The notes beneath the pieces were generated by a model. That model was not told the origin of the DNA. It saw only the letters and a program-made list of their open reading frames with translations, and did no database searches. DNA of 64,000 bases from Aminithiophilus ramosus (lineage in GTDB: Bacteria; Synergistota; Synergistia; Synergistales; Aminithiophilaceae): positions 1 through 64,000 of the forward strand of contig NZ_CP072943.1 of NCBI RefSeq assembly GCF_018069705.1. Direction: 5' to 3'. This document shows positions 32,615 through 39,247 of this stretch, piece after piece; within the stretch, counting starts at the first letter, position 1, and each line of letters starts with the position of its first letter. Made by a program: the position numbers and the translations under genes.

Positions 32615-34028
32615 GGAGTTTGGCCACGCCCTCGACGGTCTTCTTCCAGAGGGGGCGTTCCCGCCAGGCGCCGGGGTCGAGGCGCCGCGACCGGGCCAGA
32701 TAGCCCTCCTGGGCCTCGACGATGAGGCCCGTCACCTCCCTGCCGTAGAGGACCATGTTGAGCTCGAAGTTGAGGGCGAAGGAGCGGATGTCGAAGTTGC
32801 TCGAGCCGAAGAAGGCCATCTGGCCGTCGACGGTCATCGTCTTGGCGTGGACGATGTCGGGGCCGAAGAGGTGGATGGCCACGCCGATCTCCATGAGGCG
32901 GCCGAAATAGGCCTCGGCGGCGCGGCCGACGAAAAACTGGTCGCCTCGGCGGGGAACGATGAGATCGACGGCGGCGCCGTTGAGGCAGGCCACCTCCAGG
33001 GCCTGGAGGAGCCCCTCGTCGGGGATGAGGTAGGGCGTGGTGATGACGACCCGTTCCCGGGCCTGGAAGAGGGCCAGGGCGACGAGGCGCTGGTAGTTCT
33101 CCGTCGAGTAGGCCGGGCCGCTGGGGACGGTCTGGAGGAAGGAGCCGCCGCAGCCCCTCTCCTCGGGAAGGGCGGCGGCGATGATCTCGTCCGTCTCGAC
33201 GTACCAGTCCTCGAGGAAGACGCCCTGGAGCTGGCCGACGATGGGGCCCGTCAGACGGAGCGTCAGGTCCTCCCACCTTCGCCCCTGGGCCTTGCCGCCG
33301 TAGGTGGCCTCGGTGATGTTGTGGGAGCCCATGAAGCCCACCGATCCGTCGATGACGGCCAGCTTGCGGTGGTTGCGCAGGTCGAAGCGGGCCGAGAGCC
33401 TGCCCCGTCGGAAGCGGGAGAGGGGGAGGGCGCGGGCGAGGCGGAGGGGCCCGTTCAGGGTCGCCCCCTCTCGCCTGAGGTATTTCTTGGAGCCCAGGTC
33501 GTCGAGAAGGAGCCGACAGGCGACGCCCCGCGCTGCGGCCCGTTCCAGGGCCTCGAGCAGAGGTGCCGTGACGGCGTCGCGCTCGAAGATGTAGTAGAGG
33601 AGATGGACCGACTCCCGGGCCCCGTCGATGTCCTCGACGAGGCGGTCGATGAGGGTCGTCTCGCCGTCGATGAGCTCCAGCGTCTCGGCCCGGCTGACGG
33701 GCCACTGGGCCAGCTTGGTCCCCAGGCGGCTCACGACGGAGGCTCCCTCGGAGAGAGGGGGATCGGGACAGCTTCGGCCGTGGCCGACGACGTCCCTCAG
33801 ACGCCTCAGGGCCCTTTCGTGGCGCTCGCGGCGGAGCTTGGGCAGTTTCGTCGACCCCAGGGCCAGGTAGAGAAGGCCGCCGGGGAGGGGCCAGAAGAGG
33901 ACGATCAGCAGCCAGGTCATGGCCACGGCCGGAGGGTGGCGCTGGGGGAGGACGCAGAGCGCGCCGAGGCGGACGGAGAAGAAGAAGAGGTTGTGGAGGA
34001 CGAGAAAAAGCGTGCTCCCGTCGCTCAT
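32598..34028 (-). CDS. cls: Cardiolipin synthase (phospholipase D type)
   Basis: A 476-residue enzyme that joins two phosphatidylglycerol molecules, or related lipids, into cardiolipin at the membrane. Two N-terminal membrane helices (LFLVLHNLFFFSVRLGAL and WLLIVLFWPLPGGLLYLAL) precede two HKD motifs: HRKLAVIDGSVGFMGSHN and HAKTMTVDGQMAFFGSSN. The ATG at 34028 overlaps the stop of the upstream phosphatase gene (ATGA), which fixes the start. Length is normal. Confidence 0.93.
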   Translation of the reverse strand: MSDGSTLFLVLHNLFFFSVRLGALCVLPQRHPPAVAMTWLLIVLFWPLPGGLLYLALGSTKLPKLRRERHERALRRLRDVVGHGRSCPDPPLSEGASVVSRLGTKLAQWPVSRAETLELIDGETTLIDRLVEDIDGARESVHLLYYIFERDAVTAPLLEALERAAARGVACRLLLDDLGSKKYLRREGATLNGPLRLARALPLSRFRRGRLSARFDLRNHRKLAVIDGSVGFMGSHNITEATYGGKAQGRRWEDLTLRLTGPIVGQLQGVFLEDWYVETDEIIAAALPEERGCGGSFLQTVPSGPAYSTENYQRLVALALFQARERVVITTPYLIPDEGLLQALEVACLNGAAVDLIVPRRGDQFFVGRAAEAYFGRLMEIGVAIHLFGPDIVHAKTMTVDGQMAFFGSSNFDIRSFALNFELNMVLYGREVTGLIVEAQEGYLARSRRLDPGAWRERPLWKKTVEGVAKLLSPLL

Positions 34029-34771
34029 CGCCGATCCCTCCCGGAGGCGATGTCGACGTCGCAGAGGAGGGGGAGGTGGTCCGAGAGGGTCACGTCGGGA
34101 AGGTCGAAGGTCCTGACGCGCACGTCGGGCGTCGTCAGAAGGCAGTCGAGGCGCCGCGTCGGCCTGCGGCTGGGGAAGGTGGGGCGGGCCGTCGCGTCGG
34201 CGTCGACGAGGCCCGTCGCCTCCAGGAGGGGCTTCAGCTCCTGCGAGCCCCGGAGGAGGTTGAAGTCGCCGCCGACGAGGAGCGGTCTGTCCAGGCTCCG
34301 GCAGCGCAGGGCCAGCTCTTCGAGCTGCGTCTTCCGGGCGCTCCGTCCCAGGGAGAGGTGGGCCAGGAGGACGGTGAAACCGGGAAATTCCACCTCCAGA
34401 AGGCTTCTTTTGACGCCCCGGGAGAAGAGGTTTTCCCTGGAGGCGACGATGGGAAGGCGGCTCAGGACGGCGTTGCCCTGAGTGGAGAGCAGGGGCAGTC
34501 GGCTCAGGGGTGACGTGCCGTATTTGGGGGAGAAGGCGTGGTTCCAGGACCGCGGGGCCAGGCTCCGGGCCTGATTTCGGCCGCCCTGGCGGTAGGAGCC
34601 GCCGTCGACCTCGCAGAGGCAGGCCACGTCCACGTCGAGGTCGTCGAGGAGGGCGCCGATGCGTTCCGTCCCGCCTCGGGCGGGCCGGAAAAAGCCGGCG
34701 AAGGGGAAGGGAAGGTGGTAGCTCCAGCCGCATCCCGTGCCGTAACGGATGTTATAGAAGAGAATCCTCAT
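34025..34771 (-). CDS. Endonuclease/exonuclease/phosphatase (EEP) family protein
   Basis: A 248-residue metal-dependent phosphoesterase. It starts MRILFYNIRYGTG, as EEP proteins do, with the metal Glu in CLCEVD, the HLSLG and VGGDFNLLRGS motifs, and the final SDHLPLLCDVD with the catalytic His. Such proteins cleave nucleic acids or lipid/inositol phosphates. Coupling to cls by a 4-base overlap hints at a lipid substrate, but that is inference. The start at 34771 follows AGGCAGGA. Confidence 0.82.
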   Translation of the reverse strand: MRILFYNIRYGTGCGWSYHLPFPFAGFFRPARGGTERIGALLDDLDVDVACLCEVDGGSYRQGGRNQARSLAPRSWNHAFSPKYGTSPLSRLPLLSTQGNAVLSRLPIVASRENLFSRGVKRSLLEVEFPGFTVLLAHLSLGRSARKTQLEELALRCRSLDRPLLVGGDFNLLRGSQELKPLLEATGLVDADATARPTFPSRRPTRRLDCLLTTPDVRVRTFDLPDVTLSDHLPLLCDVDIASGRDRR

Positions 34772-34871
34772 CGAAGGGTCCTGCCTTTCGCGTCTCCGTT
34801 CCGTATCCCTGCGGGAGGTCGGTCCCCGACCCACAGTCAAAGACAGAATGGACGTCCATCGGTCCGGCCAG

Positions 34872-34985
34872 GAGGTGCCTGGAGGGCGGAGAGGGTTGCC
34901 TCGAACCCGCACCTGCGAGGTGCTTTGAGCGGACCTCGGATCGGTCCGACGGAGTTTGTCTTGAAGAACCTGCCGATTCGGGTCC
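34872..34985 (+). repeat. Dispersed structured repeat, copy B
   Basis: Aligns over about 114 bases with copy A (39070-39184). Shared blocks include CCCGCACC.GCGAGGTG, GTCTTGAAGA.CCTGC and GATTCGGG. It contains a CACC...GGTG hairpin and a GGACC...GGTCC hairpin. Confidence 0.7.
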
Positions 34986-35000
34986 ACCTGTGGGGGGATT

Positions 35001-35066
35001 AAAGCGGGTCTCGCATCGGCGGACCCAGCGGAGTCCGTCCTGAAGGGCCTGTGGATTTTTGGGCCC
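35001..35066 (+). repeat. Dispersed structured repeat, copy C (3' half)
   Basis: Matches the second half of copy A: ATCGGCGGAcCC.GCGGaGTC, GTCcTGAAGgGCCTGtGGATT and the GGGCCC end. It follows copy B head to tail and lacks the left end. Confidence 0.65.
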
Positions 35067-35304
35067 CCGTCGCGATCCCGGGAGGAAGAGGCCTCTCGCG
35101 GCCTGGGCGGATTGCCCGGGGGAAATCGAGAGACCGCTCGCGCCGCCAAGCCGCCAACAGAGCCCGCGAGAGGCGGGCTGCATCGTCCTTTCCCGGAGGA
35201 CTCCGGTCCGGTCGTGTGGTTGCGGGTCTGTGATCGAGGCGGGCGATCGCTGCCCGTCGGCCTTCCATTCTAGCCCTTCCGGTCCCGGGAGAAAATGGCC
35301 CCGA

Positions 35305-35482
35305 CGACGAAAGGGACCCGCCTCAGGCGTGGTCCCTTTCGTGAAATCGGCTATCTCAGGCCGCAGGCTCCTGGAGGAGCCTCAGCGCGGGGGGATCATC
35401 CCCGCCGGGATGTTCGCTATAGGGTTGTCCTTACCGTGGTTTTTGCCGATCGGTCGACTCCCCCTTTCCGTTTCCCTGTGCA
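35305..35482 (-). ncRNA. Candidate small non-coding RNA
   Basis: A minus-strand transcript from the promoter at 35488-35516 would run about 180 bases to a perfect 12-bp hairpin (35307-35318 with 35331-35342, with a second CGCC/GGCG stem inside). On the way it has an AGGCTCC/GGAGCCT hairpin (35365-35382) and a GGC...GCC hairpin. The final GGTCCCTTTCGT could instead pair with ACGGAAAGGG near the 5' end, so two folds compete. There is no reading frame of note. I could not match it to SRP RNA, tmRNA, RNase P or a known riboswitch; 6S RNA is possible by size and shape only. Confidence 0.45.
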
Positions 35483-35487
35483 CCCCG

Positions 35488-35516
35488 ATTATAGAACAGT
35501 TCTGTCGGATCGGCAA
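35488..35516 (-). promoter_or_regulatory. Minus-strand promoter of candidate RNA
   Basis: On the minus strand, the -35 TTGCCG (35511-35516), a 17-base spacer and the consensus -10 TATAAT (35488-35493), immediately after the stop of the gene at 35521. Confidence 0.65.
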
Positions 35517-35520
35517 GGTC

Positions 35521-36513
35521 TCAGGGGCGGAAGCCCTGGGCCTCAATCAGTTGGGCCTCGAAGGCGTCGAGGCGGGCGAGGGTCTCGGGGAGAAGCTCCA
35601 GGCGCAGGGCCTGGCGGAGGCGGCGGCCCAGGGCGCTCCGGTCCTCCTTCCGGTCGGCCTGACCCTGCCAGCCGATCTTGACGCGCCCCTCGAAAAGGTC
35701 GAGGTCGACGAGGCGATTCCCTTCGGCATCGTATTCCAGCCCCAGCAGGAGGGCCTTGATCCGCTCGGGGGCGATGAAGGTGGCGAGGCGGAAGCGGTAG
35801 ACGGAGACGGCCATGAGGATTCTCGCGAAGTCCTTGCCCCACCCCTCGCCGAGGACCAGCCCCAGGTCGAGGTCCTCGAGGACGAGGCGCACCCTTCGGG
35901 CCTGGAGGTCGTAACGCTCCCAGACGTCGTAGACGCGGATCTCCAGGTTACGCCAGGCCTCGCCCCCGGCGGCCTCGTTGAAGTATTCCAGGGCCCGTCC
36001 CCTCAGGCGGTGGAAGAGCTTTTCGTAGGGGCTGTCGAAGTAAAGCACGTCGGGCTGAAGATCGGCCAGGGCCAGGGGACGGTTGAGATTCTTCTCGGTG
36101 AAGCAGAGGACGACGGGGTGGCGCCCCGACCAGCGGAGGAGCTGTTTGAGCTTGCCCGGCCGGGCGTCGAAGTCGCGGGCGATCTGTTCCATCGCCCTCT
36201 CCCTGTCCCCGCTGAGGCGGAAGAGGATGGCCCGAGGCAGAGGGCGGACGCGGAGCGGAGCCTCGAGGTCGGCGTTGATGAGATGGGCCAGGATGTCGAC
36301 GGGCGAGGCGTCGGCCAGAAAGGTCTCAAGCCGCCCCCTGTCGAGGTCGCGGCGGGAGAAGAGGAGAAGGGTCTGGTCCTCACGGGCCCGGTCCCAGAGG
36401 TCCCGCGGCGGCCGCGCCTCGAGGGGAAAGGCCTCCTGAAGGAGGCGACGGGCCGACGGCCCGCCGGTCTGAATGAAAAGGCCACGGGCGCTTCCACGAA
36501 GGAGCGAGAGCAT
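35521..36513 (-). CDS. Hypothetical protein, about 330 residues
   Basis: Soluble protein with no signal peptide or membrane segment and no family I recognise. The ATG at 36513 sits 8 bases after GGGAGG; a GTG at 36522 overlaps that site and is less likely. Notable segments are TLLLFSRRDLDRG, LRWSGRHPVVLCFTEKNL, and a Leu/Arg-rich C-terminal part with YDVWERYDLQARRVRLVLED. It is last of a minus-strand series after a phosphoesterase and an alcohol dehydrogenase, with an 88-base gap before it. Confidence 0.6.
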   Translation of the reverse strand: MLSLLRGSARGLFIQTGGPSARRLLQEAFPLEARPPRDLWDRAREDQTLLLFSRRDLDRGRLETFLADASPVDILAHLINADLEAPLRVRPLPRAILFRLSGDRERAMEQIARDFDARPGKLKQLLRWSGRHPVVLCFTEKNLNRPLALADLQPDVLYFDSPYEKLFHRLRGRALEYFNEAAGGEAWRNLEIRVYDVWERYDLQARRVRLVLEDLDLGLVLGEGWGKDFARILMAVSVYRFRLATFIAPERIKALLLGLEYDAEGNRLVDLDLFEGRVKIGWQGQADRKEDRSALGRRLRQALRLELLPETLARLDAFEAQLIEAQGFRP

Positions 36514-36601
36514 CGATGACACCTCCCGGACGGATGGGGATCTGGAGGGACCTGTCGCGGCAGGCTCCTCTCCTTGAATGAGGGATCGGCAAGGCCCTCT
36601 C

Positions 36602-38916: not shown

Positions 38917-39247
38917 GGCCACTCCTCCTTTGCTCTTCCCATTATAACGCCGGCCGGTCGTGGCGGTCTTCCCCCGGACGAGCGAGGAGAACACGGAAAT
39001 CTTGTCGACTTCGCCGGCCCCTCCCCGATTCACGGGCAGAGCCGGATGGAAGCGCCTCTCGCCCGGCCGGCGTCTGGAAAACGGGGACGGTCGCCCCGAA
39101 TCCGCACCGACGAGGTGGCCGGAACGGGCCTTGAATCGGCGGATCCGGCGGCGTCTGTCTTGAAGAGCCTGCGGATTAGGGCCCCTCTCCTCTCGTAGGC
39201 AAAGCCATCACCGAGGTCTACAATGGCGGGACAAGGAGGTGTTGTCC
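38917..39247. other. Intergenic gap with repeat copy A
   Basis: The only structure I see is repeat copy A (39070-39184). The rest is the divergent leaders of the hypothetical and amidohydrolase genes. Confidence 0.5.
39070..39184 (+). repeat. Dispersed structured repeat, copy A
   Basis: The most complete copy. The core from 39094 begins CCCCGAATCCGCA and ends TGCGGATTAGGG, so the ends pair as a 12-13-bp stem with one mismatch. It matches copies B and C (same strand) and D (opposite strand). Confidence 0.7.

Follow-up and report, generated by a model that had tools for sequence, protein, structure and literature searches.

A candidate gene for a structured small RNA, with a predicted promoter of its own, in one genus of Synergistota

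The locus and its neighbours

The stretch of DNA analysed here (the window) covers the first 64 kb of genome G000, which consists of one 3.11-Mb contig; among the named genomes in the collections, 'Synergistota bacterium strain L-13' (CP074691) is its closest relative. Between two protein-coding genes on the minus strand lies a segment predicted to give rise to a small RNA. Three further genomes of the genus were available for comparison: G066, which belongs to the same species and differs from the window by one base in the stretch of the RNA region compared, and G002 and G001, which represent other species of the genus. The features discussed below are as follows.

35521..36522, minus strand: upstream gene, 333 aa, no Pfam match; matches in 28/61 Synergistota genomes
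35488..35516, minus strand: candidate RNA-gene promoter, TTGCCG-17-TATAAT (-35 at 35516-35511, -10 at 35493-35488)
35493-35503: palindrome AGAACTGTTCT in the promoter spacer, between -35 and -10
35307..35481, minus strand: small RNA, predicted transcript of ~175 nt, with its 5' end placed from the -10 and its 3' end from the hairpin
35421..35464, minus strand: P1 hairpin domain, 10 consensus pairs and two internal loops (GA/AA and GA/NAAG)
35387..35405, minus strand: P2 hairpin, 92.9% of cells paired
35365..35382, minus strand: P3 hairpin, 96.4% of cells paired
35348..35363, minus strand: P4 hairpin, 4 bp, with a loop whose length differs by one base
35307..35342, minus strand: P5 end hairpin and candidate terminator, perfect 12 bp plus an inner 4 bp
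35267..35295, minus strand: second promoter-like site, TTTTCT-17-TAGAAT (8/12), candidate promoter of the downstream operon
34819-34984 and 39074-39184, minus strand: interspersed repeat of ~160 bp
34025..34768, minus strand: downstream gene, Exo_endo_phos (Pfam PF03372, 3.1e-17)
L039 2480-2816 and L003 1-210, in G001: IS-like ends GGGACAGGGAAAATGTCA and inverse, with a 17-base stretch on both sides

The protein encoded upstream has a 36% identical paralogue in the same genome (1861026-1861991). On the other side, the Exo_endo_phos gene is the same in all three species and is followed by a gene for a PLD (cardiolipin-synthase-like) protein (PF13091, 4.8e-39). The distance from the RNA to this downstream gene is 83 bases in G002, 95 in G001, and ~535 in the window species, where ~440 extra bp containing the interspersed repeat separate the two. 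With 34790-35245 as query, the genome gave 34 further matches, of which 26 had E<=1e-5 and some covered part of the query only; the five best other copies of the repeat were 78-84% identical to the window copy, and the repeat had no Rfam match. G001 has the RNA and the 333-aa gene on separate contigs, each of which bears IS-like ends and, at the break, the same 17-base stretch; if these contigs are taken to be adjacent, the arrangement looks like the insertion of an element between gene and RNA. The unit of promoter, RNA, and end hairpin is intact both beside these IS-like ends and beside the ~440 extra bases of the window species.

Conservation of the promoter and the RNA

An earlier note on this DNA had read a TATAAT and a TTGCCG spaced by 17 bases on the minus strand, and this pair was recovered at 35488..35516 as the only promoter-like site between 34500 and 36500 (shuffle mean, 0.1). 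Across the whole 64-kb window, 4 sites had at least 10 of 12 promoter matches, compared with a mean of 0.3 and a maximum of 1 in 20 shuffles, and among the 15 window sites with at least 9/12, the RNA-gene promoter alone carried a perfect -10. All six bases of this -10 are identical between species, as are 11-12 of 12 in the spacer, and judged from its sequence the promoter is of the sigma-70 type and conserved. Within the spacer palindrome, GAACTGTTC is invariant across the three species (the first A is G in G002), and AGAACTGTTCT could be an operator. No second exact copy of GAACTGTTCTATAAT was found in the genome, and when at most 2 mismatches were allowed, a search for the promoter motif of 15 bases returned three further places, none of them exact.

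The RNA and its promoter are kept in 4/4 available genomes of the genus, so that conservation does extend beyond the strain, the absence of which the earlier note had named, together with the absence of a transcript, as grounds for discarding the RNA. Between species, the RNA is identical at 137/165, 126/166, and 139/166 positions (0.76-0.84), and the region of P1 (35468-35417) at 46/52, 46/52, and 50/52 (0.88-0.96). The corresponding values are 15/46 to 21/40 (0.33-0.53) for the upstream flank, 20/55 to 26/52 (0.36-0.50) for the downstream flank, 3/19 to 13/19 for the first 19 bases past the -10, and 0.56-0.74 for the four-fold sites of both neighbouring genes. This contrast in identity indicates selection on the promoter core and on the RNA from 35468 onwards, but not on the flanks or on the first ~13 transcribed bases. 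The earlier note had seen no reading frame here, which was essentially right: short frames overlap the RNA segment but are disrupted by an indel of 1 base between species. Its proposal of a small RNA gene with its own promoter, the RNA itself being a prediction, is well supported by the conservation of both parts throughout the genus.

The RNA segment has a predicted minimum free energy (MFE) of -89.3 kcal/mol, whereas shuffles averaged -67.2 (z = -4.8), and none of 200 shuffles equalled it; its counterparts in G002 and G001 gave z values of -4.5 and -5.0, with 0/200 shuffles as good in each. A consensus of five hairpins in series (P1-P5) fits all four sequences, with 94.8% of cells paired. 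None of 500 shuffles matched either the paired fraction or the covariation score, and structures slid along the alignment paired 38-55%. Folded singly, the sequences do not all show the five hairpins in their MFE structures, and in G002 with flanks P1 is replaced; without flanks, P1 is present in all three species.

Covariation could be assessed on four sequences, two of them nearly identical, and changes on both sides of a pair occur at three pairs, all in P5. Thus, P5 is supported by covariation, and the other hairpins are supported only by folding and invariance. The stems of P1 and P4 never vary, so the pairing of P1 is untouched by the covariation test: all 10 of its pairs are invariant, a single internal-loop column varies, and most of the change falls in the apical loop. 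In P2, strain L-13 has an A-U pair where the window has an A-C mismatch. As the earlier note had described, the minus strand carries a perfect 12-bp end hairpin, P5, at 35342-35307, formed by ACGAAAGGGACC (35342-35331) and GGTCCCTTTCGT (35318-35307), with an inner CGCC/GGCG. In the upper part of P5, the window sequence is out of register in the alignment, which lowers the pair count there. A proper U-tract is absent after P5 (tail, UUUCGUCGUC), and a terminator scan made no call at this hairpin.

Three covariance models were used to look for relatives of the RNA: R1, in which helix P2 is one column out of register; R2, which has the right structure; and R3, which is without the end hairpin. 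R2 matched over its full length in G000, G066, G002, and G001 (195.2, 197.8, 196.8, and 187.8 bits); its other rows in the genus were on the opposite strand, and elsewhere among 185 Synergistota genomes it reached at most 23.2 bits. At E<=0.1, R1, R2, and R3 matched 11, 10, and 5 of these genomes, the genus accounting for 4 each time. None of the three models identified a relative in the other 181 genomes, in which matches did not exceed 24.3 bits. Since these searches scored 10-19 first-look candidates per genome under strict filters, weak relatives may have been missed. BLAST against 61 genomes (E<=0.01) matched five, comprising the window's own, one for each of the other two species in the genus, and a weakly matching pair (E 0.006 and 0.010). 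A pattern scan of 84,980 species genomes returned 66 places, of which 3 were real by the model and the other 63 scored at most 11.4 bits; scans of viral contigs, plasmids, and phages returned 0 each. Around orthologues of the upstream gene, none of 27 loci (two of them paralogue loci of the genus itself) had an R1 match above 5 bits. The RNA is thus without a relative outside the genus in these searches: it is young, fast-evolving, or was missed elsewhere.

A likely free-standing gene and its alternatives

We consider it reasonably likely that a structured regulatory small RNA, confined to a single genus of Synergistota, is encoded here by a free-standing gene. That a conserved small RNA gene of narrow distribution lies here and is transcribed is probable. 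What favours a free-standing gene over a leader is that the unit remains intact beside the IS-like ends of G001 and the extra bases of the window species and that the second promoter-like site separates it from the downstream operon.

A cis-acting leader of the nuclease/phosphatase-PLD operon, resembling an attenuator or riboswitch in which P1 would sense a signal and P5 would stop transcription unless prevented, is an unlikely but not far-fetched alternative. It draws on the position of the RNA, which lies directly upstream of the downstream gene on the same strand in three species, at a distance of under 100 bases in both G002 and G001, and on a layout in which an invariant 5' domain is succeeded by an end hairpin; the leader reading keeps some likelihood from the fact that every species has this gene downstream. 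In addition, ACGGAAAGGG at 35471-35462, at the 5' end of the RNA, contains a GAAAGGG that repeats the 5' arm of P5 and complements the CCCUUUC of its 3' arm (7 bp). The earlier note had pointed to this alternative pairing, which is real as letters but not energetically competitive: when forced, it is 16.4, 10.4, and 15.5 kcal/mol worse in the three species, with a probability of at most 1.5e-5. A switch built on it, as the earlier note had suggested, is therefore not borne out. Further against a leader, the second promoter-like site recurs in all three species after P5, 181-185 bases from the RNA start and with a score of 7-8/12, so that it lies between P5 and the gene, and the window species carries its extra bases in the same interval. 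Finally, in other families, 26 loci surrounding downstream-gene orthologues gave no R1 match above 5 bits.

Alternatively, the RNA could be only the conserved 3' end of the upstream operon, that is, a transcript end with stabilising hairpins, preceded by letters that resemble a promoter by chance. The RNA promoter does begin only 5 bases past the stop codon of the 333-aa gene, and other perfect hairpins of at least 10 bp, several with short T tails, occur elsewhere in the window. However, few bases of the locus are as well conserved as those of the -10 and spacer, and in G001 the intact unit of promoter and RNA is separated from the 333-aa gene by the IS-like ends; we regard this explanation as improbable.

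Possible function and known RNAs

Under the favoured reading of a free-standing gene, the RNA would be transcribed constitutively or under the control of a regulator binding the AGAACTGTTCT palindrome, and the transcript would end at P5. It may then act in trans and independently of Hfq, with P1 and the unpaired linker next to it, AUAGNGANCANCC, either pairing with an mRNA or binding a protein. P1 and the linker are probably the working part because the strongest constraint falls on the P1 stems, nearly all of the internal-loop bases, and the linker. A bolder proposal, which we hold to be distinctly unlikely, is that P1, whose two internal loops are rich in purines, constitutes a new element that binds a protein or ligand, that the promoter carries its own operator, and that the RNA founds a new class. 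Complements of the linker with at most 1 mismatch were found at 3, 3, 1, and 6 places in G000, G066, G002, and G001 (the RNA gene included), compared with 3, 5, 4, and 3 for the backward control. Since these counts are not above the control, they provide no evidence for a target.

The genome encodes CsrA (83.2 bits) and has no PF17209 match for Hfq, a combination that would suit a CsrA-titrating RNA of the CsrB/RsmY type, and five GGA motifs are kept in the three species. However, the motif counts of 7, 6, and 5 are near the shuffle means of 6.6, 5.7, and 6.7, and accessible GGA motifs (2, 1, and 1) are not in excess, as 110, 132, and 166 of 200 shuffles reached these numbers, making titration of CsrA very improbable. 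The suggestion of the earlier note that the RNA might be 6S, or here a second 6S, agrees with it in size only (~175 nt) and is scarcely credible, as no RF00013 match was found at the gathering score or at E<=10, hairpins in series take the place of the long rod with a large central bubble, and the genome has a true 6S scoring above the cut-off at another position (2062661-2062841, 48.5 bits), the only 6S place in it, in a search that at E<=1 matches 47/61 genomes.

Hfq-independent intergenic small RNAs with an end hairpin are a known kind. The RNA resembles them in its predicted promoter, its length of ~175 nt, its serial hairpins, its end hairpin, and its genus-level spread, and differs in having no match to an Rfam 15 family and a poor U-tract. 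The earlier note had recognised no known RNA at this place; consistent with this, 0 Rfam families reached the gathering score in the window, and nothing relevant appeared at E<=10. The best Rfam score on the RNA came from DUF3800-XI RNA (RF02975), a 29-base hairpin look-alike at 35419-35391 that we attribute to chance (15.0 bits, where the gathering score is 37.8; E = 1.3).

In PMC6429828, the SLH motif is presented as a riboswitch candidate of Synergistaceae located upstream of S-layer-homology genes or genes of unknown function. Both it and the RNA are structured and occur in the same phylum, and they are set apart by the gene context described there for the SLH motif. A table in the review PMC9029176 counts one annotated small RNA in Synergistetes. 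A description of the RNA was not found in literature searches or in passages of PMC9029176, PMC6429828, and PMC8632094, which is no proof of absence. With Synergistota almost blank for small RNAs, a strongly conserved RNA gene gives a testable case in a genome where no Hfq was found, and the RNA would matter more if P1 binds a protein or a small molecule.

Several sequences outside the genus mimic parts of the RNA. Of the R1 look-alikes, four alignments are carried by the end hairpin, as judged by eye, and a fifth spans model positions 127-161, which correspond to the end hairpin. The extra match of R3 is a GC-rich double hairpin in G016, and one of the weak BLAST matches outside the genus falls, by eye, in apparent protein-coding sequence. 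Hairpins resembling P5 (GAAAGGGAC...GTCCCTTTC; L076 326-550) occur in other families of Synergistota as look-alikes of the models and are perhaps a common type of end hairpin.
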